A stretch of DNA of 64,000 nt. It comes from Tetracentron sinense. Taxonomy: Eukaryota; Streptophyta; Magnoliopsida; Trochodendrales; Trochodendraceae. Location: NCBI GenBank assembly GCA_015143295.1, contig CM026567.1, forward strand, positions 14,650,416 through 14,714,415. Direction: 5' to 3'. Of this stretch, positions 5,293 through 40,080 are shown piece after piece (the stretch's first letter is position 1; each line of letters begins with the position of its first letter). A model generated the notes under the pieces. It did no database searches. It was given only the letters and a program-made list of their open reading frames with translations, and was not told the origin of the DNA. The position numbers and the translations under genes are program-made.

Positions 5293-5330
5293 CTCTCATC
5301 TCTTTCAAAATTTACAGTAGTGAAGTAACC

Positions 5331-12990: not shown

Positions 12991-13162
12991 GAGCAATGCT
13001 AGGTCCACTTTCCGGTCGTCCACTCTCACTTATTTTTGGACAAGATGAAAAAATAGAATTACACTTTTTTGTGGGTCCCATCACATTAATTTTGTCTTCT
13101 TGTATAAAAATAGTAAAAACTACTGGAGAGTGGACAACCAGAAAGTGGACCTAGCATTGCTC
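12991..13162. mobile_element. MULE-type MITE, 172 bp, with 10-bp target duplication
   Basis: The left end (GAGCAATGCTAGGTCCACTT and on) and the right end are inverted over about 37 bases with two or three mismatches. TTCATAACTA stands directly outside both ends (12981-12990 and 13163-13172). A 9-11 bp duplication with long inverted ends is the mark of Mutator-like elements. It has no coding capacity and must have been moved by a transposase elsewhere. The two ORFs that cross it on either strand are not genes. Confidence 0.93.
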
Positions 13163-13179
13163 TTCATAACTAATTCCAT

Positions 13180-16442: not shown

Positions 16443-16490
<48 letters not shown>

Positions 16491-17795
16491 AAAGCAAAAC
16501 TATTTTCTTTGTCATTTCAAATGTTTGTCATTTCAATGTCATCTCCACTTTTCAATGTTTTGCTGTTACAAAAAAGCCATGTTATTTTTCCACATGAGAA
16601 AAGAGGAACACATTTTTGTAATAATTCTAAAGCCGAGCCGAGCCGAGCTGAGCCACACCTTTACGAGATTTTTGACGAGCTGAACTTGAGCAATAGTGTT
16701 GAAGCTCGAGACGAGTTTGAACACATATATACTATAACGAGCCGATCTGAACACATTACTAATTGGTTGAACAACCTACTAATAGGTTAATATCAGCCCT
16801 AATGATATGTGTTCATAGGTAGGCATGCATGTCTTGGACACTGACCTGACACGTCCTCGCAATTATGATAATATTTTTCATGCAAATTTGTTAGTTGTGT
16901 TTATTAGATTTAAAATTCTAAATATTATATTATGGGGGCATTTCCTCTCCAGAATAGGGGTGGACTGGTCTTTCCCTCTTTCTTTCACAACTTCTTACCT
17001 TGTTGGAATCTGGTAAGGGATGACAGTGTTCAGGGGGAAATTTGGTTGGCTCTTCCTGGAGCATTATCTTGGATCGAATGGTGTGAGAGAAAAAGAGGGT
17101 CATTGAGGACTCTGCCTCGCTTTCATCATGCATATGCGCACTCATCCGATTGCTGTCTTTGAATGGATTTTAATTCGCCATGCGGGGGAAGACTTGGGAG
17201 GATTGTTGTTGTGATCATTCCCTTCCTTGTTGTGTTGTTTAGGGTTGTTTCATTTTTGTTTTTCATTAAACTGCGTTTATGTACTTGTAAAGTCTTTGCC
17301 TGTTGTACTAACCCTGTAATCTTTTTCATATTTTAATATATGCATTTTGATTACCGATCAGATAGAAAAAATATTATTGTTTAGTCTTTAATACTGGAAA
17401 ACAGAGAGAGATAAATTAAAGATTTCCTCCCTAGTATCTATGCCAATTCCAACATGTATCTGGTATTAATGTCCAACTTGGGTCGATGACACATCTTTTT
17501 GGAAAACGCTAGTGTCCTTCTTTAAGGAGTTTAGTATTTAGTTGAACACATCAACAGATTTTCATTATGGCTTGGTTGTGTTAAAATTCAGATGACTTCC
17601 ATCTATTTTATTAATTTAAAAGAAAAACAGAGAGAAAGTGCTACAATTAGTAGAATTAAGGCCATTTTATGTGATCTGTATGGTACAAGACTAAAAATGC
17701 TATGTTGTATCAATTCATTGATAAATATGAATTTGGATATTTGATTGATTTTACCATTTTAGGTTGATGTCTAACTTGGTTATATGTTATTGCAG
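15174..17795. other. SAC9 intron with repeats
   Basis: An intron of 2.6 kb in the broken SAC9. It holds a 'gagcttgg/ccaagctc' inverted-word stretch at 16110-16245 and an 'agccgagccgag' stretch at 16630-16660. It also holds a compound microsatellite at 16443-16490. Short ORFs here (for example 16932-17162) have no recognisable domain. Confidence 0.6.
16443..16490. repeat. Compound microsatellite (TC)n(TA)n(TG)n
   Basis: Runs of TC, then TA, then TG dinucleotides follow one another without a gap. The ORFs that cross it are artefacts. Confidence 0.95.
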
Positions 17796-18349
17796 GTTGA
17801 AACAGCAACAGGCTCGGCATCATCCTTGTCATTGCTTGCTCCATTTGATTCTAAATCACAACATTCATATTGGAGAGCTCCTCCTAGCACCTCCTGTGTT
17901 GAATTTGCTATTGCTCTTGGTTGTCTTTCCGACGTCTTTGGGGTCATCTTACTTGTTAGTCCATGTGGCTATTCAATGGCTGATACTCCTACCGTACACA
18001 TCTAACTCCCCATATTTTAGTTTAGTGAATGCAGATACTAGAATCTTAGCCTGATCCGCCCGTATTGATCTTAGTACATCAGCCCGTTCGTGTCCTTACC
18101 TTAGTTGATTAGCTCAGGCTTGTCTAGACCTTACTTCATCTACTAGATCCCGTCTCAATCTTACAAATATCATGCCAGGCCAATTGTCAGCCTCAATTCA
18201 ACAGCTCAGAGAGATCAGACATTTGTTTATTCGTAAATGGCAACTCAGTAATATGACAACTCATATACGACAAATTGAGAATAAGACGAAACCTTGTAGC
18301 AATTAAGACCAACCTATCCCAGATATTTGGACAGGCTATCTGTCTAAAC

Positions 18350-18790
18350 CAATGTTACCTGGTTCGTCGGTTTGAATTGGGGTTCGCAATTTGCCTTTCT
18401 AAAGTGAACCCGGTTCGCCTGGGGTAGGATGAAACAGTTCATTTACTTAGTTCTTTAGTTTGGTTCGCTAGCTTGGCTTGCTTATATATATATATATGTA
18501 CCGTGTAAATAAATATATTATAAATATTTATTTATAAAAAAACATTAAAAATAGGTTTTATGGCCGGTTCGCAAACCTAAAAAAAAATTCGCCGAAAAAG
18601 TATAAGTTCACCGAACTTAAAGAAGAAATTCGCCGAACCCAAACAAAAAATTTGCCGAACCTAAACAAAAAGTTCGCCGAACCAAAGCTATTGGGTTCAG
18701 GTAGCGGGTTCGCTCATTTTCACGAACCCAAACAAACTGAACCGCAAATTGGTTCGCTTCGAACCAGTTCGCGGTTCGTACTAGTAGGTA
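18350..18790. repeat. GGTTCG/CGAACC-rich repeat
   Basis: Repeated 'ggttcg', 'ttcgccgaac' and 'gaaccc' words, denser at both ends and inverted towards the centre, around a TA-rich core at 18480-18545. It is probably a non-autonomous transposon inside the second SAC9 intron. The 60-aa ORF at 18652-18834 is made of these words. Confidence 0.55.
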
Positions 18791-19923
18791 GCGAACTATA
18801 TAACATTGATCTAAACATTAATGAGTTCTTATAGTTCACAACCGTCCTTTGCATGCATTGACCCTTGGAGGTTTATATGCCTATAAATATACGGATCAAA
18901 GGAGACAAATGGATCCTTTTTCTAAACTCTGAAACCTTTGAACATATTGACTTCTCTGCATTTCTATTCAATCCAATTTTGACTTAAACATTGAAGTGTT
19001 TTTGAGAGGTCAGACAACCATTCCACAAAATTTTCATCCCTCTAACCTGTTAGTTGTATATATATATATTTACGAGTAAAATGCAAATGTGAAACCTGTA
19101 TATTGTCTCAACTATGAATTAAAAAAAATACTCACAGGCTACTCTTCATCCAATCTGGTTATTTTTGTTTTCCACGTTTCAGTATATCCGTTCCTTGTGT
19201 ATGTTATTGGACGTGAGGAGATAAATTGTAGAAAATAACTCTTGTAAGAAGTTGTAGGTGTGGAATAGGTCTTGTCTCTTGAGTCATCGACTGTTTTGAG
19301 TTTTAAACTAGGATTTTGACTTCTTAACATCTCTAATATGATAATAAACTTAGCAGTCATATTGGTGGATACTAAACCTATTTTGGATAATGATATTAGT
19401 TTACGGCTTTCCTCAGTTTATTGAGAAATCGACTGGCTCTCTGCCCCATAGTATGTGTTTCTTATGTCTACTTATCTGTCTACCTAATACTATATTTTTA
19501 ACATGCTGGTTTTCACAGTTAACTATGTCAATGAGTGGAACTTTTCTTTCATATTCTGCACTCTGATTTTCTTATTTCCTGCTACCTTTATATTTTTCTT
19601 TGATAAGTCCCTCATTATTGTTAGTACAGGTGCAAATATGGGCCAGCAATAAGATAAATAAGGAAGAACGGTCGTGCATGGGAAAATGGGACGTCCAATC
19701 CCTAATCACATCCTACTTGGAAGGACGGGAAAAATAAGGTAGAGGCAATAACACTCCGAGGCATGTGAAATTTACCTTGCGGAATCCCATTCGATGTCAT
19801 ATCATTTGGATAACACTACGTCTTCTGCGTGCTGGTTCAAAGTCTGCTAGTTTAGGGAAAGACTTCAATCTTCTGTCTCTAGATGAAAACCCTTTCTCAC
19901 AACTTGATCGTAATGCGTCTTTT

Positions 19924-22832
19924 GTACTTGGGGTTTGGTGGGGCCCACCCCCAAAGTTTTTCTCCTTCTGGCAAGATAGTGGGGGCGTATATGGCTAGAT
20001 AGTGGGGCGTATATGGCTAGCAAATGCCTTAGTGATATTGATGCATCCCTGCTCTATCATTTATCAAGTGTTAGTATTTGTCTTTGCGAGTTAATCAATG
20101 GTGAGTAGATTTCTTCCTGAAGAGAAATTCTCTTCTAATATCTCGATCTGAATATAATTCGACGCTTTGTCTTGTACTTTTAAGTCTTATATTTTGATAT
20201 TATTCATTCAGAATTTATTATGCAAGAAAACTGATTGTCTGAATTTGTTTTATGTATTCCTACATTATACAACTACACCATGTGAGTTATATGTAACGAG
20301 GCGTGAATGACGACTTCTGGTCAAGGTTAAGCTTAGCATAGACCGTGCTCTCGGCTGCCCTTTAGCTTTCACGACTGTCATTTGCTCTAGGATTCTCCCA
20401 TGGTTAGTTTCCCAATTTTTTAAATTTCTTATCTTGTCCAATATTGTTAACAATTTGATTTTTTTTCTTATTTCTAAATTAGATTTATTCGTAAAGTAGT
20501 TAATAACACTACTATAACTATCTGGAAATTACGATAAAGGACTATTAGTTTTAGGTTGCGTCTTTCAATCGACGTCACTAATGGTATGTCTCACCCTTTT
20601 ATTTTAATTTTCTTTTGTATCTTAATAATCAATTTTTTTCACTAATGTTAGATGTTAGTCTATAACCTAATGTTAATTGTTAAAAAACGTAGAAAGAAAT
20701 TAGGATTTTACTAGTTATAGACTCGCTGGTCGTAGACATCCTACTCTTTACATTCCGACATGTACTTGGGGTTTGGTGGGGCCCACCCCCAAAGTGTTTC
20801 ACCTTCTGACAAGATAATGTGGGCGTATATTGTTAGATAGTGGGGGCGTATATGGTTAGCAATTGCCTTAGTTATATTGATAAATCACTTTTCTATTATT
20901 TATCAAGTGTTGGTATTTGTCTTTGCGAGTTAATCAATAGTGGGTAGATGTCTTCTTTAAGGGAACTAAGTACTCGATCTGTATATTATTCTTAACTTAG
21001 TTCTTGTACTTTTAAGTCTTATATTTTTATATTATTCATTTAAATTTTATGTGTAAGAAAACTGATTGTCTGAATTTGTTTTCTGTACTCTTACATTATT
21101 CAACTACATCATGTGAGCTATATGGAACCAAGCGTGAACGAAGACTTCTGCTCAAGGGCCATTAAGCCTAGTATGGACCTTGCTCTCGGCTGTCCTTTAG
21201 CTTTTGCGACTGTCATTTGTTCTAGGATTCTCCTATGGTAAGTTTCCCCATTTTTCAAATTTCTTATCTTGTCCCATATTGTTAACAATTTGATTTTTTT
21301 CTTATCTTTACATTAGATTTATTCGGTAAAGTAGTTAATTACAAAACTATAACTATCTTGAAATTACATCTCAGAATCAGTGACTTCTAGAAAAGGACTA
21401 TTACTTTTTGTTGCGCCTTTCAATCGACTTCACTAATTGTATGTCTCACCATTTTATTTTATTTTCGTTTGTATGTTAATAATCTAATTTTTACCAAATG
21501 CTATATGTTAGTCTAGAACTTAAAAGTATAATCGTTAAAAAAATTAATTTTGTTTTAGGATTTTACTATTGATAAACTAGCTGGTCTTAGACCTCCCACT
21601 TTCTCCATTTCGACAAGTACTTGGGTTTGGTGGGGCCCACCCCCAAAATGTTTCTCCTTCTGGCAAGATAGTTGGGGTGTATATGGCTAGCAATTGCCTT
21701 AGTTATAATGATGTATCCCTTCTTTATCATTTATCAAGTGTTACTATTTGTCTTTGTGAGTTAATCAATGGTGAGTAGATTTCTTCCTTAAGAGAAATTC
21801 TCTTCTAATTATTCGATTTGAATATAAATCGATGTTTAGTTCTTATACTTTTGAGTCTTACATTTTGATATTTTTCATTCAGAATTTATTATGTTAGAAA
21901 ACTGATTGTCTGAAATTGTTTTATGTATTCCTACATTATTCAACTATGCCATGTGAGCTATATATAACGAGGCGTGAACGACGACTTCTAATCAAGTTTA
22001 AGCTTAGCATGGACCGTGCCCTCGGCTGCCCTTCAGCTGTCGCGACTGTCATTTGCTCTAGGATTCTCCCATGGTTAGTTTCCCAATTTTTTAAATTTCT
22101 CATCTTATCCTATATTGTTAACAATTTGATTTTTTTCTTATTTCTAAATTGGATTTATTCCGTAAAGTAGTTAAAAACACCATTATAACTATCTGGAAAT
22201 TACAATGCAGAATCACTGACTGCTAAAAAGGACTATTTGTTATTGGTTTTGTCTTTCAATTGACGTCACTAATGGTATATCTTACCCTTTGATTTTAATT
22301 TTCTTTTGTATCTTAATAATCTATTTTTTTCACTACTGCTAGATGTTAGTCTATAACTTAAAGTATAATCGTTAAAAAAAGTAAAAAAATTAGGATTCTA
22401 CTATTTGTAGACTCGCTGGTCGTAGACATCCTACTTGCCATTTCGACAAGTACCTGGGGTTTGGTGGGGCCCACCCACAAAGTGTTTCTCCTTCTGGCAA
22501 GATAATGGGGGCGTATATTGCTAGATAGTGGGGGCGTATATGGCTAGCAGTTGCCTTTGTAATATTGATGAATCACTTTTCCATCATTTATCTAGTGTTA
22601 GTATTTGTCTTTGCGAATTAATGAATGGTGAGTAGATGTCTTCTTTAATGGAACTAATTACTCGATCAGTATATAATTCTCTATTTAGTTCTTGTACTTT
22701 TAAGTCTTATATTTTAATATTATTCATTGAAATTTTATGCTTAAGTAAACTGATTGTCTGAATTTGTTTTATGTACTCCTACATTATTCAACTACATCAT
22801 GTGAGCTATATGGAGCGAGGCGTGAACAATGA
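19924..22832 (+). repeat. Tandem array of about 850-bp units, part 1 (A-B-A-B)
   Basis: Units begin with 'gtacttggggtttggtgggg' at 19924, 20762, 21617 and 22450 (spacing 838, 855 and 833). Two subtypes alternate. Type A has 'gagtagatttcttcc' and 'ggtcaaggttaagc'. Type B has 'gagtagatgtcttc' and 'ctcaagggccattaagcc'. Order here is A, B, A, B; the fourth is cut by an LTR element. Each unit has, at fixed places, donor-like 'aatggtgagtag', 'catggtaagt' or 'catggttagt', and 'aatggtatgtct'. An acceptor-like 'gatgcag' also occurs in many units. A frame with CELYVTRRERRLL is open in some type A units but stops in type B, so coding is not supported. The family is not recognised. Confidence 0.93.
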
Positions 22833-25085
22833 TGTAGTGACCCTAAGTTAAATTAAATACACTTAGGGGTAAATTGGTAAATTATACCTTGAGGATAATT
22901 TAGTAATTGATTTTTGGTGTTTGATCATATGGCTAACCTTGGTGGGGTAGGGCTAACCCAATGATTTAATTTAATGAGTTAAATTAATGAAATCTAGGTT
23001 ATAAACAAACAGACCTTAGTGGGGGTATATTAGTAATTCTCTAAATAGAGTTTAGGATAAATAGAATTGTTTAACCTAATAGTCATATTTTGCTAAACTT
23101 AAATTAGGAGAAGTGAGATACGATCGTTTTGGGAGGAGAGGAGGAAAGCGGCTGTAGGGTTTGGAATTCTGTCGGATCCCGTGGAGAACCTGGTGATGGG
23201 ATTTGGATCATCTAAGTTAGCGTCGAAGCTGTCCTAAGCAATCATTCTCTTGCATTCTTCTCAAAAATCAAATCTAGAGGCAAGTGAATATTTCTATAAT
23301 TTAGATGTAGGGTGTGTTATGATGACACAATATTTTAATGTGTTTTTCTTCTTGTGTTAATGATTGTGTGTATGAAAATATGCTAGATCGATAAATATTT
23401 TATACAGGTATTATTCTGATTTTTTTTAATATGCTATGAGTGATTTTAATAAATGATATAATAATATATTAGATTTTAAGGAAGAAAATATAAGAGATCT
23501 AGGAGATTAAAATTAGTGATTTTCGGAATTGAGTTAATTTAAATGAGATTTATCTAATTTCGGTATTTGGGTCATAACTTTATGACATTAAGTCCGATTT
23601 TGGTCCGATAGTACATCGTTTCGAAGAGCTCGAAAAGATCTACAACTTTCGTGAAGAAAGTTTTCCCAAAATCAGTATTTTTGTGGGTCAAAACCTTAGT
23701 TGAAAATCAAAAACGGGAAAAGTGATATTTTTCACATTAATTTTTCTAAGATACTTTTATTAAATGTATACATTATTTGAGTGTGAGAACATTGTTTTGT
23801 TGAGATTTCTTTATAACTAATTGGTTAGTTTGTTAGATGGTTGAAAGATACCTCTAACAAATTTAAATAATTAATTACTAAATAATTTGTTAGTAACTTG
23901 ACTTATATTTTTTTTAGTTAATTTGTTGGGTGGTTGAAAGATACCCCTAACAAACTTAACTAATTAGTTACAAACCAATTGGTTAGTGACTGAGCTCTTT
24001 TATGCTAGTATAAGGGTTTTACTAAACTCACTAGCATAAAAAAGGGTTTTTCCAAGCCTTTGGAGGTTTGTGAAACCCTGAACCCAATTATCATGGGAGA
24101 TTGAGAATTTGTAGGGTTATAAATATGTGATATTTATAACTAAAGTTTCAGTTGCAGAAACACAACTGAAACCCCTTTTGAAATAAAGTATGTTATGTCG
24201 GCCTAGTTATTAATTGTAAATTATAGCATTGTAGATTTTAATTATCAATTATGATGTTGACAATTATAACTGTCATTTAATGTTTTGTTATATTTTCATA
24301 ATAGTTGGAATTCATCTTCTAAAATAATGGTGATTCAATAAAACATTGTTTTAACCTTGGTTAAGGGTCATTCAAGGAGTAAATTGTGTAAGACCTCCTT
24401 AAATTGATCATAGGGTGATGTTGTGTACCACCCAATGATGGTTTCAGGGTGGTGTAGAGTACCTACCCAGAAACAGAGGATTGAGTTGAGTTGTGTAAGA
24501 CACTCAATTCTCAGATGGGTGAACTGTGAGACCCAAGGGATAGGGTAAACTGTGTGAGACCCAAGGGATAGGGTAAGCTGTGTGAGACCCCAAGGATTCC
24601 CTTGTTTAATAGGGTAAGTTGTGTAAGACCCCTATTGACCGGACTGAGCCATAAGTAAAGACTTAATTGAATAATATGCTTAATTTCTTAGTCATCTTAT
24701 CATATGAATTATTAATGCATTTAAATTATAGTGTATTCTCTTGTTGAGCTATAGGCTCACTCTTGTTGATTCTTCTTTTTCAGGTGGTGATTAAAAAGAA
24801 TAGGAATTGCTCTCATTTGAGCAAGTGAGACCAGCCTTAAAGTTTTCTTCTCTATTAGAGTGTGAGAGAACTATAGTGAGGTAAACTATATGAAATATTT
24901 GGATGATTTAGTTTTTTGGGAGAACTCATGTTGTTGAGTCTTTTAATTATGCTGGTTATTTAAATCTGTTTAATGGAGTATTAAATTATTTTAATTTTCA
25001 TTAATATTGGAATTTTTTTTCCGGTTCACGCCTTGATATTTATACAAATATTAGTATTATTGTGTATAGATTTCGGGGCATAACA
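22833..25085 (+). repeat. Gypsy 5' LTR (family C), 2,253 bp
   Basis: Starts TGTAGTGACCC and ends GGGGCATAACA. It is followed within four bases by a primer-binding site. The termini resemble family A, but the body differs. It has repeated 'gtgtgagacccaagggatag' words at 24530-24600 and a stem-loop TGAGC/GCTCA at 24745-24759. A paired 'gttaatttgttgggtggttgaaagatacc' stretch occurs twice near 23820-23960. It interrupts array unit 4. Confidence 0.88.
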
Positions 25086-25088
25086 GAT

Positions 25089-25100
25089 TGGTATCAAAGC
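25089..25100 (+). other. Primer-binding site (initiator tRNA-Met)
   Basis: TGGTATCAAAGC follows the LTR by three bases and matches the usual TGGTATCAGAGC primer-binding site of plant gypsy elements, apart from one base. It fixes the element's orientation as plus. Confidence 0.85.
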
Positions 25101-25247
25101 ACTAGGTTTAGAAACTCTGGTATAACAAGAGTGACACCCAAGAAAGTTCTTAGGGTCCTTGAGTTGTGTTTAGCTAAATAGTTGTTCTTCCTTCCATTAT
25201 TATAGTATTACCGGACTAATTATTTTCCTTATTGTGTGATAAGGATT

Positions 25248-26483
25248 ATGTCTGGAGGTAGGAGAGGACGAGGTAGAGGTGGTGGTAGGGCACTAGGAGG
25301 CCCTGCAGGTGAATGAAGTATACCGGGTCTTGGGAGAAACGATAAGGCTTCTGGAAGAGACTGCTAGGCAGATGGGTAATAGGTTTGATTCATCTAGCCA
25401 ACAGTCATTGGATACTCTGATGGCAAGTCTGATAAAAGAATTCAAGAGATTGAATCCATCAAACTTCAGTGGAACTGTGGATCCGATGGAGGCAGATAAA
25501 TGGATCCTTGAGTTGGAGTAGATCTATGAGATAATGGATTGCACTGAGGTTCAGCAGAGGAAACTGGCAGTATTCCTTCTGAAAGGAGAAGCACATCACT
25601 GGTGGGATTTGGTAGCTAGGACTGAGGATGTGGTTGAGATGGGATGGGAAGAATTTAAGGAGAGGTTCTATGCTAAGTACTTTCCAGAGACTGTTCATGA
25701 GCAGAAGGCCTTAGAGTTCATTAATCTGACTCAGGGATCTCTTACTGTCAGTCAGTATGAGACAAAGTATGCTGAGTTGTCTCGCTTTGCCACATACATG
25801 GTGGAAGATGAGGTGCGCCGAGTTCGCAAGTTCGAATAAGGCTTGACTCTTTCTATTAACAAGATGGTAGTAGGACATCGACTGAGAACTTATTCAGAAG
25901 TTGTGGAGCGGGCCGTAGTGATTGAGCAGGATAATGCAACTTACCAGAGAGGCAGGGAGCAGAGGTCAGCAGTGCCTCAATAGAATCAGAAGGGTCAGTT
26001 TAAGGGACATTAGCAGCCATGGAAGCGTCAGAAGACGAATACACCAGGTGTGTCCTCTGTAGTGGTTCCAGTCGTGCCTGTTCAGCGAGCTGAGCCAAAA
26101 GCTTTTTATGGGATGTGCTACAATTGCAGGGAGAAGGGACATCTTGCTAGAGATTGTCCGAAACCCAAGACGGATCGACCTCAGACTCAAGCTCTCAGTT
26201 AGTAGAAGAACCAGAGCCGAGTATTTGCTGTAGTTCAGAAGGATGCAGAGGCATCAAATGCGGTAGCTGAAGGTACACTTTCAGTTTATAACAACATTGC
26301 TAGAGTACTTTTTGATTCGGGAGCTATACATTCTTTCATTTCAGTTACATTTATGAATGCAGTGGGCTTAGTGCCAGAATCTATAGATTTAGCATTATCG
26401 GTCGTGACACCATTGAGAAAGTCAACTACTCTTGATCGAATCTGTAGAGAGTGTCCAGTTAAGTTTGGGGAGAGAGTTCCTGT
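25248..26483 (+). pseudogene. Gypsy gag and protease remnant
   Basis: The ATG at 25248 opens a Gly/Arg-rich start (MSGGRRGRGRGGG) that stops at once; a shifted frame continues. The gag core is seen at 25420-25840 (LNPSNFSGTVDPMEADKWI, FLLKGEAHHWWDLV, FYAKYFPETVHEQKALEF). The zinc knuckle CYNCREKGHLARDC lies near 26119-26160 and the protease motif VLFDSGAIHSFIS near 26310-26345. Stops occur near 25520, 25838, 25980, 26010 and 26202. Homology ends near 26484, where a minus-strand LTR begins, so the rest of pol is lost. Confidence 0.92.
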
Positions 26484-27569
26484 CATAAAGCATTTAAGGC
26501 AATTTTAAAAACCTGAACCTGAAAATTTTTCTTTAAATAAATCTTGGTCAAATCTAATGTCTGAAATAAATACTAAAACATCATAACTAATTCCAATCAT
26601 TCATCCTGATCCCCAATGATCAATTTAATCTAATTATAAATCAAAAATCAAGTCTATTACAATGTCTTAACTCAAAATATAAATACTAAAAACTAATTCC
26701 CAGGAAATAGCCAACGGTCCAAATTTCATTCACCATCGGGGTAATCACATGTTGGCTCTTCCTCTTCTTCCTCGTACTCTTCCTCTTCCCAAGGTCCCGG
26801 GACACAAATATCAAATCTAGCACCTGCCGACAACAACAGTCATCGACTAAGTAACAAGTTACTCAGCGTATATATAAAATCCTATTTAACAATATAACAA
26901 TATTTAATATAAACATAATTTAGAATTCAACATAACATGTGAACATATAACAATTTAGAGTGTGGAAACATAATTCAATTTCAATTCTTACACATGATCA
27001 CTTGTACTTATTTCTCTTGTTTATCTTACTTATTTTCTTGTTCGTGAATGTATCCAACAACATGCAAATGCAATAACTTAATATAACTCTATCCCATATA
27101 TTGGGTAGAGAATAACATAGACCCTACTTTCCGAGGTACCACACGGTTTACACATTATCCGATGCATACGGCTTGTCTACACATTATCCAGTGTATACGG
27201 CTTGTCTACACATTATCCGGTGTATACGGCTTGATTACACATTCGCCGGTGTATACGGCTGGTCTTGCCTTGATGGTCTTGCCTTGAGTGAAATAATTAT
27301 GATTGTAAATCATGCATAAATTTAAACATGCAGAATTTCCCATAAATTGATCAATATAGAACAAAAATCTATCAAGTTTTCATAATAAAATCATAACTTA
27401 AAATATTTTCTAGTCATCATATATATTTTTCCATAAGAAAATCATCACTTAAAATACTCTCTAAACATCAGGTATATTTTCCATAAGAGAATTATAATTT
27501 AAAACACTGTCAAATCATCACATGTATTTTTCCATGAGAAAATCATGATTCGAAACATTCTCTAATATA
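26484..27569 (-). repeat. Partial gypsy LTR, minus orientation (family B relative)
   Basis: It shares the words 'aaagcatttaaggc', 'cacaaatatcaa', 'cctgccgacaaca' and 'gttactc..cgtatata' with the LTRs at 33023, 47491 and 52427, but is diverged. Both LTR termini are missing. It contains four copies of a roughly 30-bp 'cattatccggtgtatacggct' repeat at 27155-27265 and a roughly 64-bp 'ttttccataagaaaatca' repeat at 27375-27560. A stem-loop lies at 26847-26866. Confidence 0.8.
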
Positions 27570-28200
27570 ATGGAAGACATTATGAACCGCCGCCATGTGA
27601 GGAGGCAGGTTAACCCTGTATGCCACTTCTCCTACTCTCCTGATAATTTCGAAAGGTCCAACATACCTTGGGCTTAACTTGCCTTTCTTACCAAACCTCA
27701 TAATCCCCTTTGTGGGAGATATTTTGATGACGACAAAATCTCCAACTTGAAATTCCAAGTCTCTTCTCCAGGTGTCTGCATAACTCTTTCGTCTACTCTG
27801 AGCAGTCTTTAATCTTTCTCTTATCAAATTAACCCTGTCTGCGGTCTGTTCAACTAGCTCGGGACCCAGAAGTTTTCTCTCTCCTACATCCCAACAAAGA
27901 GGAGATCGACAACTCCTACCATACAAGTCTTCAAATGGTGCCATCTGAATGCTTGCTTGATAACTGTTGTTATAAGCAAATTCAACTAAGGGTAAATGCT
28001 CATCCCAACTGCCTTGAAAATCAAGCATACAAGACCGGAGCATATCCTCAATAACCTGATTCACTCTTTCTGTCTGACCATCTGTTTGAGGATGAAATGC
28101 CGTGCTGAAATCCAGGCGAGATCCCATGACTTGCTGAAAACTCCTCCAAAATCTTGATGTAAACCTTGTGTCTCTATCAGAAACTATACTGACAGGTACT
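27570..28200 (-). pseudogene. Gypsy integrase fragment, minus strand
   Basis: An unbroken frame read leftwards from 28197: VPVSIVSDRDTRFTSRFW, FHPQTDGQTERVNQVIEDML, EFAYNNSYQASIQMAPFE, KGKLSPRYVGPFEI and HNVFH. It holds the second Asp and the Glu of the catalytic triad plus the C-terminal binding part, but lacks the first Asp and the zinc finger. It fuses directly into the partial LTR at about 27570, so the end of pol and the start of the LTR were deleted together. It has fewer lesions than the gag beside it and comes from a different, younger copy. Confidence 0.9.
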
Positions 28201-31200
28201 CAATGGTCAATGGTGAGTAGATGTCGTCTTTAAGGGAGATTCTAACTAATTACTCGATCTGTATATAATTCTCTACTTAGTTCTTTTACTTGTAAGACTT
28301 ATATTTTTATAATATTCATTCAAATTTTGTGTAAGAACACTGATTGTCTAAATTTGTTTTATGTACTCCCTTACATTATTCAACTACATCATGTGAGCTG
28401 TATGGAATGAGGCGTGAACGACTACTTCTGCTCAAGGGCCATTAAGCCTGGCATGGACCTTGCTCTCGGCTGCTCTTTAGCTTTCACGACTATCATTTGC
28501 TCTAGGATTCTCCCATGGTAAGTTTCCTCATTTCTTAAATTTCTTATCTTGTCCTTAATTGTTAACAAATTGATTTTTTTCTTATTTCTCAATTTGATTT
28601 ATTCAGTAAAGTAGTTAATTACATAACTATAACTATTTGGAAATTACGAATCAGAATCAGTGACTTCTAAAAAAGGACTATTACGACTTCACCAATTGTA
28701 TGTCTCACCCTTTTATTTTATTTTTCTTTTGTATGTTAATAATCTAATATTTCACTAATGCTAGATGTTAGTCTATAACTAAAAGTATAATCGTTAAAAA
28801 AAGTAAAATTTTTTTAGGATTTTATTAGTTATAAATCCGCTGGTCGTAGACATCCCACTTTCTCCATTTCGACAACTACTTGGGGTTTGGTGGGGCCCAC
28901 CTCCAAAGTTTTACTCCTTCTGTCAAGACAATGGGGGTGTATATGGATAAATAGTGGGGGTGTATATGCCTAGCAATTGCCTTAGTTATATTGATGCAGC
29001 CATTCTCTTATCATTTATCAAGTGTTAGTATTTGTCTATGCGAGTTAATCAATGGTGAGTAGATTTCTTCCTTAAGAGAAATTCTCTTCTAATTGCAGGA
29101 TCTGAATATAATTCGATGCTTAGTTCCTGTACTTTTAAGTCTTATATTTTGATATTGTTCATTCAGAATTTATTATGTAAGAAAACTGATTGTCTTAATT
29201 TGTTTTATGTACTCCTACATCACACAACTACACCATGTGAGCTATATGTAATGAAGCGAGAATAACAACTTTTGGTCAAGGTTAAATTTAGCATGGACCG
29301 TGCGTTCAGCTGCCCTTTAGCTTTCACGACTGTCATTTGCTCTAGGTTTCTCCCATGGTTGGTTTCTCAATTTTTTGAATTTCTTATCTTGTCCTATCTT
29401 GTTAACAATTTGTTTTTTTTCTTATTTCTAAATTAGATTTATTTGGTAAAGTAGTTAATAACACCACTGTTACTATTTGGAAATTGTGATGCAGAAATCA
29501 GTGACTGCTAAAACAGGTCAATTAGTTTTAGGTTGTGTCTTTCAATCGACATCACTAATCATATGTCTCATCCTTTTATTTTAATTTTATTTTGTATCTT
29601 AATAATTTATTTTTTCCCCTAATGCTAGATGTTAGTCTATAACTTAAACTATAATTGTTAAAAAAAGTAAAAAAAAAAAGGATTCTACTATTTATAGATT
29701 CGCTGGTTGTAGACATCTTACTCTTTCCATTTCGACAAGTACTTGGGGTTTGGTGGGGCTCACCTCCAAAGTGTTTCTCCTTCTGGCAAGATATTGGGCA
29801 AGTGTATTGCTAAATAGTGCGGCCGTATATGGCTTGCAATATCCTTAGTTATATTGATGAATCACTTTTCTATCATTTATAAAAAGTTAGTATTTGTCTT
29901 TACGAGTTAATCAATGGTGAGTAGGTGTCTTCTGTACGGGGACTAATTACTCGATCTGTATATAGTTCTCTACTTAGTTCTTGTACTTTTAAGTCTTATA
30001 TTTTTATGTTTTTCTTTCAAATTTTATGTGAAAGAGAAGTTATTGTCTGAATTTGTTTTATGTACTCCTACATTATTAAACTACATCATGTGAGCTATAT
30101 GGAACGAGGCGTGAACGACGACTTCTCTTCAAGGGCCATTAAGCCTAGCATAAACCTTGCTGTTGGCTGCCATTTTGTTTTCGCGACTGTCATTTGCTCT
30201 AGGATTCTCCCATGGTAAGTTTTCCCATTTTTTAAATTTGTTATCTTGTCCTATATTGTAAACAATTTGATTTTTTTCTTATTTCTAAATTAGATTTATT
30301 CGGTAAAGTAGTTATTTACACAACTATAACTATCTGGACGTCATGAATCAGAATCAGTGACTTCTAAAAAGGACTATTAGTTCTAGGTTGCGTGTTTCAA
30401 TCGACGTCACTAATGGTTTGTCTCACCATTTTATGTTAATTTTCTATTGTATCTTAATAATTTATTTTTCACTAATGCTGCTAGATGTTAGTCAATAACT
30501 TAAAGTATAATCGTGAAAAAATGTAAAAACAAAATTAGGATTCTACTATTTATAGACTCGCTGGTCGTAGACATCCTACTCTTGCCATTTCGACAAGTAC
30601 TTGGAGTTTGGTGGGGCCCACGCCCAAAGTGTTTCTCCTTCTGGCAAGATAGTGGAGGCATATCTGGCTAGATAGTGGGGTGTATATGGCTAGTAAATGC
30701 CTTAGTGGTATTGATGCATCCCCGCTCCACCATTTATCAAGTGTTAGTATTTGTCTTTGCGAGTTAATCAATGGTGAGTAGATTCCGTACTGAAGAGAAA
30801 TTCTCTTCTAATATCTCGATCTGAATATAATTCGATGGTTTGTTCTTGTACTATTAAGTCTTACATTTTGATATTATTCATTCAGAATTTATTCTGCAAG
30901 AAAACTGATTGTCTGAATTTGTTTTATGTATTCCTACATTATACAACTACACCATGTGAGTTATATGTAACGAGGCCTGAACGACGACTTCTAGTCAAGG
31001 TTAAGCTTAGCATGGACCGTGCTCTTGACTGCCCTTTGGCTTTCGTGACTGTCATTTGCTTTAGAATTCTCCCATGGTTAGTTTCCCAATTTTTTAAATT
31101 TCTTATCTTGTCTAACATTGTTAACAATTTGATTTTTTTTCTTATTTCTAAATTAGATTTATTCGGTAAAGTAGTTAATAATACCACTATAACTATTTGG

Positions 31201-33022
31201 GAATTACGATGCAGAATCAGTGATTACTAAAAAAGGACTATTAGTTTTAGGTTGCGTCTTTCAATGGATTTCATTAATGGTATGTCTTACCCTTTTATTT
31301 TAATTTTCTTTTGTATCTTAATAATCTATTTTTTTCACTCATGTTAGATGTTAGTCTATAACTTAAAGTATAATCGTTAAAAAAAGTTTTTTTAAAAAAA
31401 GGATTCTACTATTTATAGATTCGCTGGTTGTAGACATCCTACTCTTTCCATTTCGACAAGTACTTCGGGTTTGGTGGGGCCCACCTCCAAATTGTTACTC
31501 CTTTTGGCAAGACAATGGAGGCGTATATGGCTAGATAGTGGGGGTGTATATGACTAGCAATTCCCTTAGTTATATTGATGCAGCCCTTCTCTGTCATTTA
31601 TCAAGTGTTAGTATTTGTGTGTGCGAGTTAATCAATGGTGAGTAGATTTCTTCCTTAAGAGGAATTCTCTTCTAATTACTGGATCAGAATATAATTGGAT
31701 GCTTAGTTCATGTATTTTTAAGTCTTATATTTTGATATTATTCATTTAGAATTTATTATGTAAGAAAACTGATTGTCTGAATTTTTTTGATGTACTTCTA
31801 TATCATACAACTACACCATGTGAGCTTATGTAATGAGGCAAGAACGACAACTTCTGGTCAAGGTTAAGTTTAGCATGGACCGTGCTCTTGCCTTTAGCTT
31901 TCGCGATTGTCATTTGCTCTAGGATTCTCCCATGGTTAGTTTCTCAATTTTTTGAATTTCTTATCTTGTCCTATCTTGTTAACAATTTTTTTTTCTTATT
32001 TCTAAATTAGATTTATTCGGTAAAGTAGTTAATAACACCACTATTACTATCTAGAAATTGCGATGTAGAAATCAGTGACTGCTAAAACAGGACTATTAGT
32101 TTCTAGGTTGCGTCTTTCAATTGACGTCACTAATGGTATGTCCCACCATTTTATTCTAATTTTTTTTGTATCTTAATAATCTATTTTTTTCACTAATGCT
32201 AGATGTTAGTCTATAACTTAAAAAATAATCGTTAAAAAAAGTTTTAAAAAAAATTTGGATTTTACTATTTATAGACTCGCTGGTCGTAGAATCTTTCTCT
32301 TTCCATTTCGATAAGTACTTTGGGTTTGGTGGGGCCTTCCCCCAAAGTGTTTCTCCTTCTGGCAAGATAATGGGGGCGTATATATCCTAGATAGTTGGGG
32401 TGTATATGGCTAGCAATTGCCTTAGTTATATTGATGCATCCTTTCTCTTTCATTTATCAAGTGTTAGTATTTGTCTTTGCGAGTTAATCTGGTGAGTAGA
32501 TTTCTTCCTTAAGAGAAATTCTCTTCTAATTACTGGATCTGAAATATTTCGATGATTAGTTTTTGTACTTTTAAGTGCTATATTTTGATATTATTCATTC
32601 AGAATTTATTATGTAAGAAAACTGATTGTCTGAATTTGTTTTATGTACTCCTACAATATACAACTACACCATGTGAGCTCTATGTAATGAGGTGTGAAAG
32701 ACTTCTTCTGGTCAAGGTTAAGCTTAGCCTGGACCGTGCTCTCGGCTGCACTTTAGCTCTCGCGACTGTCATTTGCTCTAGGGTTCTCCCATGGTTGGTT
32801 TCCCAATTCTATAAATTTCTTATTTTGTCATATATATTAAACAATTTGATTTTTTTCTTATTTCTAAATTAGATTTATTTGGTAAAGTATAACACCACTA
32901 TGACTATCTGGAAATCACGATGCAGAATGACTGACTGCTAAAAAAGGACTATTAGTTCTAGGTTGCATCTTTCAATCGACGTCACTAATGGTATGTCTCA
33001 CCCTTTTATTTTAATTTTTTTT
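28201..33022 (+). repeat. Tandem array, part 2 (B-A-B-A-A-A)
   Basis: The array resumes within a type B unit at 'caatggtgagtag' (28201). Units start at 28876, 29739, 30597, 31460 and 32315 (spacing 863, 858, 863 and 855). Order after the partial B is A, B, A, A, A. The last unit is cut by an LTR at 33023. The stretch 'gtgagtag' to 'gtgaac' of type B is present on both sides of the 22833-28200 insertion, so that insertion is not a clean one within a single unit. Confidence 0.92.
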
Positions 33023-35775
33023 TGTCACGCCCCAAAACCCCACCTGTGAGAATATGAGATCTTGGCACGTGACTTACTTAACAAACCATCCTGTTAAAGC
33101 ATTTAAGGCATACTAAAATATGATCTTAAAAATTTTCTTCAATTAAAACATCAATTAAATTCATAATCATTGACTGCAACTGAAATAAAATAAATACTAA
33201 CCCTCCATCATGATCATCATCAAAATAAACTAAACATAAATATCTATAAGGTTAATTAAAGTCGCCCTAAAATTTGACCACAAACAAATTTAAATTCAAT
33301 AGTAGGGCCAAGTCTTCCTCGGAATAATCACCTTCCGGTTCCCCGAAGTATTCATCTTCTTCCCATGGTCAGGGCGCACAAATATCAAAACCTGAACCTG
33401 AACCTGAACCTGCCGACAACAATAGTCATCGGCTGAGTAACGAGTTACTCCACGTATATAACAAACCATAGTGAACAATATAAAGAACATTAAATTACAT
33501 GCATTTTACAGATTCATATATCAGTTCACATACATAATCAGAGTGCGGAAACAACCAAATACATTAAGTCAATTTCTTTCTTTTCTTGCTTTCTTACTTT
33601 CCTCACTTTCTTACTTTTTTTTTCTTACTTTTCTTACATTCTGACTTTTCTTCTTTTCTTATTTTTCTTTGAGATCTTTCTTGAAACCAGATATCTAGTA
33701 CCATTGGAAACTTATCTTGAAGCAAGGCACTAGCATCTTTGGAGATCTTTCTTTTCTTACTTTTTATACTTCATACTTTATCATTCCATGAACAACACAT
33801 TCACATACATTAGTAATAACTTAAAATACCACTTTACCGTATAAGGAAAGGGGTTACTATACTTTACTTTACCGAGATACCACCCTTCATACATTTTCCG
33901 GCACGGACGGCTTAGTAAATTTTCCTGTACGACGACTTACTTACTTTGGCATACATCTTGCCCTTTTTGATGGTATCCGGTGGTGCAAAACACATACATG
34001 CATTTCTGTTTTCGTGTGTCTTTCTTTCTTACTTTTCTTACTTTACTTTTGGTCTCACTTAACATCTTATTAATATCTTTAATTCTTCTTTCATACTTTT
34101 GCATATTTTTCATTTATGAGTGCACAATGATATACTTCTTATTTAAATCGCACCTAAGACTAACCGTCAAGGGCCATAGGACATCTCACCATAGCGTCAC
34201 ATACCACTATGTTAACCAGGCCTAGGCAAACATGACTTTCATTAGAGGTTCATTTACCCAATGGTATATCATGTATTAAGAAGTATAACAGAAATACAAA
34301 ACCTTTCACATTTCCTATAATTTGACAAATCAAACATTACTGTTGCTATTAAAATATTCATACATCATGATCTATCAATAACAATTATCATGAAATTTAA
34401 GCATAAAATTAAACTCACATATTATTAACTTATTACAATTAAATCATCCATTCAATTCTATCCATTATCACATTCTCTTCATAAATCCACATACTTGAAA
34501 TAATTTTCCCAATCCCCTTGTTGAATCATAATTAATTTAAAGATGGTTCTTCACATCAAAATTTAACTATTCAAAAATAATAAAACAATATCTTAAATAG
34601 GTTCTTATATCCTATGTTAATCATCCAAGAATAATAAGCTGAAATTATAGATCTAGTTCTTCACATCTTAATTTAACCATCCAAGAATAATAGACTGAGA
34701 TCGTAATATAGTTCTTCACATCCTATTTTAACTATTCAAGAATAATAAATTGATCATAATATGGTTCTTCACATCCTATTTTAACCATTCAAGAATAATA
34801 AACTGATCATAATATGATTCTTTAATCCCTATTTTAACCGATCAATTATAATGAAACAAAAATCATAGACATGTTCATAGATCCTACATATCCTTACATC
34901 TTTCCTTAGGTTTACTCATTTTTATTCATCCCTTCAGGTTAATATTCAAAATATGGGTCACTAGATCAGTTATTTACCTCACTTGATCGTTTCCCTACGA
35001 TCTATCGCTTGCGAATAAGGCTGTATATCGATCTCCAAGTCTCATTTTTCCTTTATTTTGATCTAATCCTTGAACTCCTCAAGATTCCCCATTTTGATCT
35101 CTTAGGAAGCTCTCTCTTTTCTCTTTTTTAGATTTAGAAGCCTATGGAAACCCTAACTCACGAGTTGGAGGGTTATTTATAGTGTTTGGGAACCAAAGAG
35201 AACTTAAAAAGTCAAAAATCGGCGTTTTCGCGCATACCGATCGATCGGCGAGTTTTGGCCACCGATCGATCGGTGCTAGTTGGCTGAGCGGTCGGATCCC
35301 TTTATTTTTTTTCTGCCCCTTGCTCCGGTATTTTGCCCGTAACTTTTGACTCGGTTATCCGAATTAGACGATTCAACTTGCGTTGGAACTGTTATTCGAA
35401 GGGGAACAATTTCTTGTACAATAGGCAAGCCCCAATTTCAAGTTTATGAAGGTTAAAATGTCTCATCAAGTTGGATGAAGGTGAAAGCGAATCCCAAAAC
35501 ATTTGAGTTAATACTGAGAACCCAATGTTTGAACCCTTAGACTCCTAGAAGTTAGAAAATAGGTACCTTAGCCTAATTTAAGCAATGAGGTGCCCCTTAA
35601 ACCCAAAACTCTTAATTTAATAATAATAAGTTAATCACTATTATTATTATTATATAAGAGTTTACTAATTTAGGTATCCCACATTAATTTTCATAGGAAC
35701 ACATGCATTTAAAATCGGATGCATATTCCAAGGAATTTATGTAAATGGCACGAATGCCGAAAAACTAAATTTCGG
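33023..35775 (-). repeat. Near-complete solo LTR, family B, minus orientation
   Basis: Starts 'tgtcacgccccaaaacccc' and runs parallel to the LTR at 47491-50318. It ends at 'actaaatttcgg', about a dozen bases short of the LTR terminus. No internal element sequence is attached, so it is a solo LTR from recombination. About 25 bases of the array unit are lost at the junction. It holds roughly 53-bp repeats ('ggttcttcacatcctatttt') at 34545-34830, GATCGATC palindromes at 35240-35275 and a stem-loop at 33435-33450. Confidence 0.88.
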
Positions 35776-37700
35776 TAATGCTAGATGTTAGTCTATAACT
35801 AAAAGTATAATCGTTAAAAAAATTAAAAAAAATTACGATTCTACTATTTATAGATTCGCTAATCGTAGACATCCTACTCTTTCCATTTCGACAAGTACTT
35901 GGGGTTTGGTTGGGCCCACCCCTAAAGATTTTCCTCTTTTGGCAAGATAGTGGGGGCGTATATGGCTTCCAATTGCCTTAGTTATATTGATGCATCCCTT
36001 TTCTATCATTTATCAAGTGTTAGTATTTGTCTTTGCGAGTTAATCAATGATGAGTAGATTTATTCCTTAAGAGAAGTTCTCTTCTAATTACTCGATCAGA
36101 ATATAATTCGATGCTTAGTTCTTGTGCTTTTAAGTCTTATATTTTGATATTATTCATTCAGAATTTATTATGTAAGAAAAATGATTGTCTGAATTTGTTT
36201 TATGTACTCCTACAATATACAACTACACCATGTGAGCTCTATGTAACGAGGCGTGAAAGACTTCTTCTGGTCAAGGTTAAGCTTAGCCTGGACCGTACTC
36301 TCGGCTGCACTTTAGCTTTCGCGACTGTCATTTGTTCTAGGATTCTCCCATGGTTGGTTTCCCAATTTTATAAATTTCTTATCTTGTCCTATATTGTTAA
36401 CAATTTGATTTTTTTCTTATTTCTAAATTAGATTTATTCGATAAAGTAGTTAATAACACCACTATGACTATCTGGGAATCACGATGCAGAATCACTGACT
36501 GCTGAAAAAGGACTATTAGTTCTCGGTTACGTCTTTCGATCAACGTCACTAATGGTATGGCTCACCCTTTTATTTTAATTTTCTTTTGTATCTTAATAAT
36601 CTATTTTTTTCACTAATGCTAGATGTTAGTCTATAACTTAAAGTATAATCGTTAAAAAAAGTAAAAAGAAAAATTAAGATTTTACTATTTTTAGACTCCC
36701 TAGTTGTCGACATCCTACTCTTTCCATTTCGACAAGTACTTGGGGTTTGGTGGGGCCCGCCCACGCCCAAAGTGTTTCTCCTTCTGGTAAGATAATGGGG
36801 GCGTATATTGCTAGATAGTTGGGGTGTATATGGCAAACAATTGCCTTAGTTATATTGATGAATCACTTTTCTATCATCTATCAAGTATTAGTATTTGTCT
36901 TTGCAAATTAATCAATAATGAGTAGATGTCTTCTTTAAGGGAAATTCTAACTAATTACTCAATCTGTATATAATTCTCTACTTAGTTCTTGTACTTTTAA
37001 GTCTTATATTTTTATATTATTCATTCAAATTTTGTGTAAGAAAACTGATTGTCTGAATTTGTTTTATGCACTCCTACATTATTCAACTACATCATGTGAG
37101 CTATATGGAATGAGGCGTGAACGACGACTTCTGCTCAAGGGCCATTAAATCTGGCATGGACCTTGCTCTCGGCTGCCCTTTAGCTTTCGGACTGTTATTT
37201 GCTCTAGGATTCTCCCATGGTAAGTTTTCCCATTTTTTTGAATTTCTCATCTTGTCCTAAATTGTTAATAATTTGATTTTTTTTCTTATTTCTCAATTAG
37301 ATTTATTTGGTAAAGTAGTTAATTACACAACTATAACTATCTAGAAATTACAAATCAGAATCAGTGACTTCTAAAAAGGACTATTAGTTTTAGGTTGCGG
37401 CTTTCAATTGATTTCACCAATTGTACGTCTCACCCTTTTATTTTATTTTTCTTTTGTATGTCAATAATCTAATTTGTCACTAATGCTAGATGTTAGTCTA
37501 TAACTAAAAGTATAATCGTTTAAAAAAAATAAATTTTTTTTAGGATTTTACTATTTATAAATTTGCTGGACGTAGACATCCCACTTTCTCCATTTCGACA
37601 AGTACTTGGGGTTTGGTAGGGCCCACCTCCAAAGTGTTGCTCCTTCTAGCAAGATAGTGGGGGGAGGGGGAGGGGGGAGGGGGGAGGGGGGAGGGGTGTA
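35776..37700 (+). repeat. Tandem array, part 3 (A-B, truncated end)
   Basis: After the end of the interrupted unit, unit starts are at 35895 (A), 36736 (B) and 37602 (cut short). The last unit stops about 100 bases in, after its G tract has grown to a run at 37659-37696. No SAC9 exon follows. Confidence 0.92.
37659..37696 (+). repeat. G-rich expansion with G-quadruplex potential
   Basis: Other units read 'gatagtgggggcgtatatgg'. Here the tract has become a run of G blocks of four to six bases separated by single A's. At least five such blocks follow one another, enough for a four-tier G-quadruplex. Confidence 0.85.
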
Positions 37701-38540
37701 TATGGCTAGATAATGCCTCAGCAAATTGTGCTCCCAATATGGCAACTCAAAAAATATACTCAGCTTTAAGTTAGAATATGACGGATCTCGGATTGGATTC
37801 AAATCTGTCGGATTTATAATGAGATTGGATTTGGATATAGCCAAATCCGGTCCGAATTTGACCCGTTGACAACCCTAAATACACAACCTAGTCAATTTTG
37901 AACTCTATCTGAGTTATATTGAATCCACGGTGTAAATAAGAGAAAAGTATGCCTCTTTCTCTTGGAAAATAGGAAAGGGTATGAAGCAAGGGTTTTGGTA
38001 GTGAACTATTGAAATGTCGACATTTTGTGCAAAACTTTGTATTTTTACAACTGTATTGAACCAAAATATCCCCCATAATATGTGCGATATTTTTGATATT
38101 TTGCAAAAGATTGTGATAAATATGCAAAAAACTATGAAAAGTATAACTACATCTGAAGGATTATTTCCCCCATTTGCGAAAAACTGAAATTTTGGCCGAA
38201 ATCACTTTTCATACGAAATTTAGAACCGTGCTTGTTACCAACATAAGTAATTTCTTACGTCTTTATGCATACTGAATTTTTTGAACCATTGATAAGTAGT
38301 CTTTATTGTTAGATTCTGTATCACTTGCTATTATATATGTTTCTTCTCCTCGTAAAAGATCTTAACTTAAAACAAAATGAATTGAATAAGAATGAAGTCC
38401 TTCAAGGGGAATCACAAATGGCCATACAGTTCCAGATCATTAGTGTTTCTAGCCACTCCTTGGAAAGCTTATGTTTGAAAGGAGTTTTTGGCCAATGGAT
38501 ATGGGGATATGAAAAATCACTATTTAAGATGGCAGAGATT
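37701..38540. other. Non-coding stretch
   Basis: No gene is recognised. At 37775-37880 there are 'gacggatctcggattgg' and 'ccaaatccggtccgaatttgaccc' words of a style common in plant transposons. The 83-aa ORF at 38325-38576 runs into the LINE tail and has no known domain. Confidence 0.4.
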
Positions 38541-40080
38541 TTTTTTTTTAATAGGCAAACGAGCTCATCATATTAATAATTGAAAAAAAGGAAACAAAGA
38601 TTCACAAAGAGTGAACAGGGCTATAGAGGGGGATTGCTATAAAGAGAGCAGAAAAGAAAAATCAAAGTTGGAGGCCATAAAGATAAGTAACCTCCCAAGT
38701 AAAACCAGGTAGAGGACCACAAATAAAAGTATAACTCTCATTAGATCGGGAATTTAATCTCTCGCCGCCCTGTTGCTACACCCCTAACCGAACCCATGCT
38801 CCCAGAATTCTGCATGCTCTCTTGGTCACTCTTCCCCTCGATAAAGAAGAGTTCTCAAAAATCCTCATGTTATGCTCTTTCTATATGGACCATGTGACCG
38901 CCCATAGGACAAGTGCCCAATAGTGTTCTAGTTGTGGACCCATTAAGCCCGGCTGCCAGCAAAATAGGAAACTCTGGAAGGAATAGGGAAAAACCCATGT
39001 AACTCCAAAATGAGTTTAAGAAGCTCCAGATGTTATATGCAAAAGGGCAGTGCAATCGCAAATGATTGACTGATTCCTCTGCTGTAAGGCACATCACACA
39101 TATGTTTATGAGATTCCAGCCTTACTTTGAAGCATAGTTGCAGGGAAGGCTCGCTTCCCAGGAACTTCGTTTCCCAGACTCGCTTTCTAGGACAGACTCG
39201 CTTCCTAGGAAGCTTGCTTCTTCGGATTGACTCGTTTCATAGGAAGCTCGCTTTCATCACATCCCATCTAGTAATCAAAGGAAGCTGTATGTGTGAAGTA
39301 ATGTCGTAGACCACAATCTATATCCTAGGGTGTAGACTCTAAGCAAGTATTGTTGGTTTGGAACGTAAGACACCTACTTTTTCACAAAAATTTCATATAA
39401 GATAAAATCAAAGGTATAACTACCCATAAATAACATAATGGTAATGAGAAGCTTGTAACTCATTTCTTGCTTCCCGTTTCTTAAGGTTTTTTTGAGTCTC
39501 ACTTCCTGCTTCTCGCTTTCGCTTTGTTTCTTGTTTTCGCTTCCTGCTCTGGTAATTATGTTTGAAGATGATCAATTGTCAAGATTTTGTCCAGAAAAGT
39601 AGTCCATAGAAAAATGATGCCTTGGATGGCATGCCTGCATGCCACACCACTTTACTAGGGAAAACTGAGTGAGAATAATCATTTCAAGCCCGCAAAAAGG
39701 AGCTAACAATAAACCGACCTTTATTATCCATAGACCACACTCGAGAATCCCTAGAATTGAGATTACGTTTTACTATCTCTAGTCTCCCCAACAGAGATAA
39801 ACAAACACACTTCCCAATCATGTAATGGTCTAATAAAACGTGGGGCCCAGACTGTGGTCCCGCCCCTCCTCTCAAAAAAGGAAGCCACCACCCCTTCCTG
39901 GTCTAGAGAAAGCAGTTGAAGCGAGTGGCTTGAGATAGAGGGGAAAATTCCATGGAACATTTTCTTCTTTAGCCAACAATTACATGTTCTGAATTCCTTC
40001 AGCATTCACTATTTGAACATGTCCAGATGTGCCAACATAAGCTTTCCCTTGCTATTTGAAAATATTCCACCACTGCCAAC
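38541..40080 (-). pseudogene. L1-type LINE remnant, minus strand
   Basis: A T run at 38541-38550, followed by 'aataggcaaacgagctcatc', is the reversed poly(A) end of a plant LINE. Reading leftwards, zf-RVT pieces appear: a DQLSRFCPEK-like stretch with 'aagatgatcaattgtcaag' at 39565-39590, and AEESVNHLRLHCPFAYNIWSF at 39035-39100. Upstream RT pieces appear at 39690-40005 (VWAPRFIRPLHDWEV). The same zf-RVT domain is found in the plus-strand LINE at 11645. Frames are broken. Confidence 0.8.

Follow-up and report, generated by a model that had tools for sequence, protein, structure and literature searches.

Pericentromeric segmental duplications carry gene fragments, and plant satellites with a dimeric higher-order organization place head-to-tail units of hundreds of bp on several chromosomes as A/B dimers, change in size by whole units, and take up transposon insertions. 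In Lathyrus sativus, satellites derive from the tandem repeats of long terminal repeat (LTR) retrotransposons, form short arrays scattered over the genome, and expand near primary constrictions, as PMC7004042 describes; the same paper cites a primate satellite that came from single-copy intronic sequence (Valeri et al. 2018). Here we describe an array of ~850-bp units of two subtypes, A and B, that directly adjoins a truncated copy of the gene SAC9 in Tetracentron sinense. The window, meaning the whole stretch of 64,000 nucleotides that was analyzed, is C17:14650416-14714415 of a 1.16 Gb assembly, and feature coordinates count from its start. We consider it highly probable that the repeat belongs to an old satellite family, that a broken duplicate of SAC9 became attached to it on one occasion, and that the resulting block was then copied.

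The T. sinense family resembles the dimeric plant satellites in all of the respects named above. Unlike them, the arrays read in T. sinense are short, with no more than ~13 units or pieces apart from a larger cluster of matches on C7, and poorly homogenized (mean divergence 12-18%), and we would place the family nearer to an ageing satellite than to an array of megabase size. As in pericentromeric segmental duplications, a truncated gene copy with introns stands beside satellite sequence and similar blocks occur on two contigs; the setting here may be pericentromeric. The Lathyrus arrays (PMC7004042) are likewise short and scattered over the genome, and LTR-like sequence of a related kind often lies close to the T. 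sinense arrays, but no element was found whose two ends enclose the unit, and the element in the window is younger than the unit that it splits. The intronic origin of the primate satellite, as cited there, is the mechanism that the original prediction had proposed for this locus, whereas the SAC9 region here lacks such intron sequence and the join falls in mid-exon. A literature search for Tetracentron satellite DNA returned nothing relevant, and the words "satellite" and "tandem" have 0 occurrences in the main text, as available, of the Tetracentron genome papers PMC7709256 and PMC8810787. Within the literature searched, the ~850-bp family appears to be undescribed; the kind of repeat is already known, and nothing known is overturned by these arrays.

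The join between SAC9 and the repeat lies in the middle of an exon, because the exon of a more complete SAC9 copy runs on through that point. This copy was found at C17:34957928-34973389, where the relative P0002 (668 residues) is matched from residue 2 to residue 668 by five exon blocks. Its exon reads ...GCGTCTTTTGGAGGGCCAGTTGAA... and is open across the junction point (TCTTTTG, then GAGGGCC), with 53 further codons after the junction phenylalanine before the donor CAAG/GTATAA. The window exon at the same place reads ...GCGTCTTTT, then GTACTTGGGG, which is the start of the repeat. The original prediction had the first unit begin exactly at a SAC9 exon edge, with "gt" as in a splice donor; the 53 codons past the join speak against such an edge, and the GT is the repeat's own sequence, the more complete gene having GGAGGG there. 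A protein search with the SAC9 exons of the window gave 99 SAC9 relatives (7,998 candidates scored), and no break in these 99 protein models begins or ends at the junction residue, while two gaps (P0043 and P0074) span it. The window copy is collinear with the more complete one, at a Kimura two-parameter distance (K2P) of 0.034-0.040. Its exon matches lie at 14378-15182 (with internal frame changes), 17784-18002, and 19630-19923 (with one in-frame stop), and Pfam PF24789 matches the last two exon pieces. Given the frame changes and the stop, the copy looks like a truncated pseudogene. The array occupies the place where the 3' exons of SAC9 are missing, and the 3' part was not found anywhere in the window, the far side of the array included. 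The earlier suggestion that the array took the place of the remaining gene therefore stands in a weak sense, insofar as SAC9 ends at the array and its 3' part was not found in the window. The array nevertheless appears to predate the join, and so would have come to lie beside a broken SAC9 instead of growing out of it.

The identical join was observed in all four truncated SAC9 copies whose exon reaches that point, namely the window copy and those at C8:32.156, 32.367, and 32.680 Mb. To judge from these sequences, a join so exactly common to four copies probably arose in a single event and was copied afterwards. At the join, one T-to-G change is common to the sister copies at C8:32.367 and 32.680 Mb. 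Two other truncated copies are present on C17, one at 14.57 Mb without a match to the junction exon and one at 14.50 Mb that matches only its first 25 residues. In a tree of the units, built from those 94 of 130 pieces that measure 650 bp or more, the first units of the three C8 copies cluster together, beside a group with window unit 1, window unit 8, and the sister of unit 8. Two of these three C8 units diverge from window unit 1 by 5-7%, compared with an average of 14% between A units of different loci. The sequence to the right of the array matches C17:14.60 Mb at 99.3% over 449 bp (up to the end of the compared stretch) and C8:32.67 Mb at ~86-88%. Taken together, the same join, the kinship of the first units, and the common right flank fit block copying after one joining event. 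In the sister arrays at C17:14.58 Mb and in the window, counterpart units are 0.4-0.9% apart, and five consecutive units of the C17:14.58 Mb array lack a window unit this close (the nearest are at 7.6-13%). This five-unit difference between near-identical arrays is therefore a whole-unit gain or loss, as expected of unequal exchange. One repeat family is thereby seen in sister arrays of different ages, in which whole-unit gain or loss can be counted.

The repeat is widespread in the assembly. A 23-mer from the unit start, with at most 3 mismatches, was found at 368 places (212 + 156), and a 31-mer from the unit middle at 287 places (169 + 118), with 0 places for the reversed control in both cases. 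Among the first 100 places of each word search, eight contigs are represented: C7, C8, C14, C16, C17, C19, C20, and C22. Unit arrays are present on C7, C19, and C20, on none of which a match to P0002, covering the C-terminal half of SAC9, was found (E<=0.001, 33 of 33 candidates scored); the P0002 matches fall on C17 and C8, plus 3' exon pieces on C15, C18, and C1. A unit found genome-wide, as a known satellite or transposon with no link to SAC9 introns, is the outcome that the original prediction had itself set against the intron idea, and it is essentially what these three contigs present together with the mid-exon join and a more complete SAC9 region in which no unit was found. Mean K2P among the window units is 0.115 for A-A, 0.129 for B-B, and 0.175 for A-B pairs. 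The units of the window thus differ by 12-18% on average and the SAC9 copies by 3-5%, and this greater divergence makes the repeat family look older than the join and the SAC9 duplication. More diverged copies of the unit (about 72-81% identity) were found on C7, C8, and C14. In the tree, the majority of A units and the majority of B units fall into groups with members from different loci, a third group comes from C7 and C20, and units group by locus only in the sister blocks. The array stretches compared run from a few kb to ~14 kb, are often broken by insertions, and show 12-18% mean divergence. The densest cluster among the unit matches listed, at C7:30.57-30.66 Mb, has matches spanning ~91 kb, of which 10 kb was read.

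We found that the two subtypes alternate beyond chance, as in a higher-order repeat. Across 12 loci, the type switches in 52 of 67 pairs of full-length neighbors, compared with a shuffle mean of 33.6 (reached in 0 of 20,000 shuffles). The excess is also seen without the three sister blocks (39 of 49 versus 24.5; 0 of 20,000), with unit fragments counted too (75 of 108 versus 52.6; 0 of 20,000), and with an all-A stretch on C7 added (52 of 75 versus 36.5; 1 of 20,000). Both subtypes are present in 12 of the 13 array stretches read. The remaining stretch, C7:30637000-30646999, holds type A only and does not alternate, which counts against a general dimer; the A/B dimer is therefore common, not universal.

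The unit is apparently a non-coding, satellite-type tandem family of ~850 bp: similar units stand head to tail, coding content is not evident, and many copies occur at several loci. A coding or captured-gene origin found no support in Pfam (five unit frames), in PDB (one unit frame, with a single match at E 0.78 that we take as chance), or among 5.8 billion proteins, where neither a composite of the unit frames nor the 150-aa frame of unit 8 had a match at E<=10. An RNA gene was likewise set aside, there being no Rfam match. The longest open reading frames (ORFs) of the units are overall like those of shuffles (median 68 versus 66 aa), though ORFs of at least 100 aa were observed in 17 of 52 A units compared with 21 of 470 shuffled units (A and B units shuffled together). 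Variability at the three codon positions is 0.133, 0.103, and 0.133, so that the third is not the highest; since, in addition, the A units are related by descent, their long ORFs are not taken as coding. The hairpin at the GC-rich unit start is, by its free energy, no more stable than those of shuffled sequences (z -0.64), and neither an internal period nor kinship with a ~178-bp tandem repeat found elsewhere in the genome was detected in the unit. Against the more complete SAC9 region (15,462 bp, the C-terminal half with introns), nhmmer returned no unit at E<=10, and the best blastn match, at 36.8 bits, was reached by 2 of 40 dinucleotide shuffles.

These observations suggest a likely order in which the satellite came first, the gene break second, and the block copying third. 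Unequal exchange would have made the arrays and would still be reshaping them. The exon of a genomic SAC9 duplicate would have been broken, and the broken end fused a single time with a repeat unit over ~1 bp of common sequence, as in non-homologous joining. Segmental duplication may then have placed copies of the block of SAC9 fragment, array, and right flank at several sites on C17 and C8, with transposons presumably entering the array later. No role of the array in SAC9 expression is indicated.

Several points weigh against this history. The SAC9 distance between C8 and C17 (0.044-0.047) is about that to the more complete gene (0.034-0.046), and gives no branching order. The array-first, join-later order rests on divergence, and gene conversion could make the SAC9 copies look younger. 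The genome search with the unit scored the best 12 of 804 candidates, so the arrays and flanks are a sample and the loci are undercounted, and the third, more distant C7/C20 group of units was forced into A or B. In addition, relatives of the LTR-like element that splits unit 10 of the window lie in or within ~2 kb of arrays at C17:14.59 (the same insertion), C17:14.88, C20, C7:27.69, C8:32.67, and C14:16.82, and C7 and C20 have a 1-kb piece beside units in common (90.8%).

The last two points bear on a reading that we consider unlikely, in which the array is part of a mobile element and its unit a segment of a transposon, or of a captured gene, that became repeated in tandem. Such an origin has precedent, retrotransposon-internal tandem repeats being a documented source of plant satellites (PMC7004042), and would accommodate both the A-unit ORFs that exceed those of shuffles and the LTR-like relatives at the six loci. 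The missing Pfam, protein, and Rfam matches argue against it, as do the third codon positions, which are not the most variable, and the 17 long A-unit ORFs are not independent of one another. The sister array at C17:14.59 Mb has the element in the corresponding position (98.7%), and because the element splits a unit both there and in the window, it is younger than the array at these sites. Elsewhere, the LTR-like sequence takes varying sides and distances relative to the arrays, the copy at C8:32.67 Mb beginning 8 bp after the array end, and no case of a unit between the ends of one element was seen among the array loci read.

We think it very unlikely that the unit was born at the broken SAC9, from unrelated sequence after the break, and then spread to C7, C19, and C20. 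The four copies with the same join and the repeat in the same phase would agree with such a birth, but the mean distances among window units are about three to five times those among SAC9 copies, units at about 72-81% identity are present on C7, C8, and C14, no SAC9 match was found on C7, C19, or C20, and the C7, C20, and C8-33.19 units point to a rooting outside the SAC9-linked arrays. An assembly artifact, with collapsed or mis-joined repeats having made the join and the duplicated blocks, seems extremely improbable: the C17 blocks (14.58 Mb and the window) are 99% alike, which is a typical setting for mis-assembly, but the join recurs in four places, and the sequence next to it is 4-7% diverged between the window and the C8 copies, which is not what mis-assembly would give. 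Scarcely credible, finally, is the amplified SAC9 intron of the original prediction, which drew on an array that touches SAC9 directly and begins with GT, and to which the large intron (~5.6 kb) of the more complete gene might be added, but which is refuted for the compared C-terminal half of that gene by a junction point within an open exon, by compared introns without a unit (nhmmer none, best blastn within the shuffled range), and by arrays on three contigs that gave no SAC9 match (C7, C19, and C20).

With an old satellite joined once to a broken SAC9 as the preferred history, the setting of the arrays may be considered. The surroundings may be pericentromeric, to judge from the neighboring ~178-bp repeat and the many transposon ORFs. 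A word of this repeat, with at most 3 mismatches, was found at 409 places, and those listed are concentrated, for example, at C17:12.8-14.3 and C14:14.6-17.2 Mb. The repeat directly adjoins units on C14 and C19, and the nearest listed copies to listed units are ~45 kb away on C7, 144 kb on C17, and 11 kb on C20. Stretches of it were noted at L041 2101-3001 and at 1-5449 of the C19 locus (L024). Pointing the other way, the ~178-bp repeat is also listed on C5, C9, C11, C15, and C23, which have no listed units; most C7 unit clusters are more than 1 Mb from listed copies; a degenerate exact word did not find it on C8 or C16; and the C19 copies are only 58-67% like those on C14. A bolder proposal, which we hold to be doubtful, is that the A/B family is a Trochodendrales-specific pericentromeric satellite and serves, with the ~178-bp repeat, as a mark of ancestral centromere regions, its arrays acting as joining points that break gene fragments such as SAC9 and spread them between chromosomes.

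The layout of the array in the window is given in Table 1. The array spans 19924 to ~37735, with nine complete units (838, 855, 833, 863, 858, 863, 855, 841, and 866 bp) and partial ones. Subtypes were told apart by 46 diagnostic alignment columns, and their order is A B A B / B A B A A A / A B, where the slashes mark two insertions. The tandem phase was fixed from the SAC9 junction, and the unit start there is a convention. The earlier count of about 12 units of 833-866 bp, in two subtypes that mostly alternate in this order, was borne out. The register of the array changes across the first insertion (22833-28206), as seen from the unit coordinates on either side, and the Ty3/gypsy-like naming of this insertion rests on a reading of its ORFs, without a family search. 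Unit 7 is of type B and turns to A in its last part, the switch lying between alignment columns 639 and 709.

Table 1. Features of the SAC9/repeat locus, in window coordinates
Feature	Position	Strand	Basis or remark
Truncated, decayed genomic SAC9 copy, introns kept	12860..19923	+	tblastn with SAC9 proteins, Pfam PF24789, collinearity; 12860 is the start of the compared reference, and the true left end may differ
SAC9 exon/repeat junction, one G common to both sides	19923..19924	+	
Unit 1, type A	19924..20761	+	K2P 0.053 to first unit of C8:32.680, 0.067 to that of C8:32.156
Unit 2, type B	20762..21616	+	
Unit 3, type A	21617..22449	+	
Unit 4, type B, interrupted by insertion	22450..22832	+	
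Ty3/gypsy-like pieces, cut down, apparently nested (5.4 kb insertion)	22833..28206	.	sequence and ORFs
Unit 5, type B, without 5' part	28207..28875	+	
Unit 6, type A	28876..29738	+	
Unit 7, B/A mosaic	29739..30596	+	46 diagnostic columns
Unit 8, type A	30597..31459	+	
Unit 9, type A	31460..32314	+	
Unit 10, first part, type A	32315..33025	+	
Inserted element, TGTCAC... start, LTR-like by inspection, ~2.7 kb	33023..35775	.	limits to a few bases
Unit 10, last part	35770..35894	+	
Unit 11, type A	35895..36735	+	
Unit 12, type B	36736..37601	+	
Unit 13, fragment with G-rich expansion; array end	37602..37735	+	73.7% identity
Right flank common to sister blocks	37736..40938	.	

Related copies of the element in unit 10 were found in the window at 47491-50309 and 52427-55358. 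The window copies of this LTR-like element carry internal tandem repeats of ~53-57 bp, at 34543-34839, 49063-49424, and 54003-54530. The 3' SAC9 pieces on C15, C18, and C1 are isolated matches to the last exon (P0002 residues 602-668), at C15:21944669, C18:18765510, and C1:48883179.

To the left of the SAC9 copy, a cytochrome P450 (P450) gene, which we take to be CYP706-like, lies at 5277-8250 and holds a near-exact tandem duplication of 403 bp (6262-7068, 99%). The public T. sinense gene model P0003, which is among the 99 SAC9 relatives, fuses the first part of this P450 to the SAC9 fragment; it matches the window P450 exon at 100% over 316 residues, and Pfam PF00067 is listed for it. The truncated SAC9 copy described here explains this suspect model, in which a P450 is joined to a SAC9 fragment. 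Finally, a minisatellite with nested periods of ~20, 58, and 80 bp was observed at 57831-58392 of the window.

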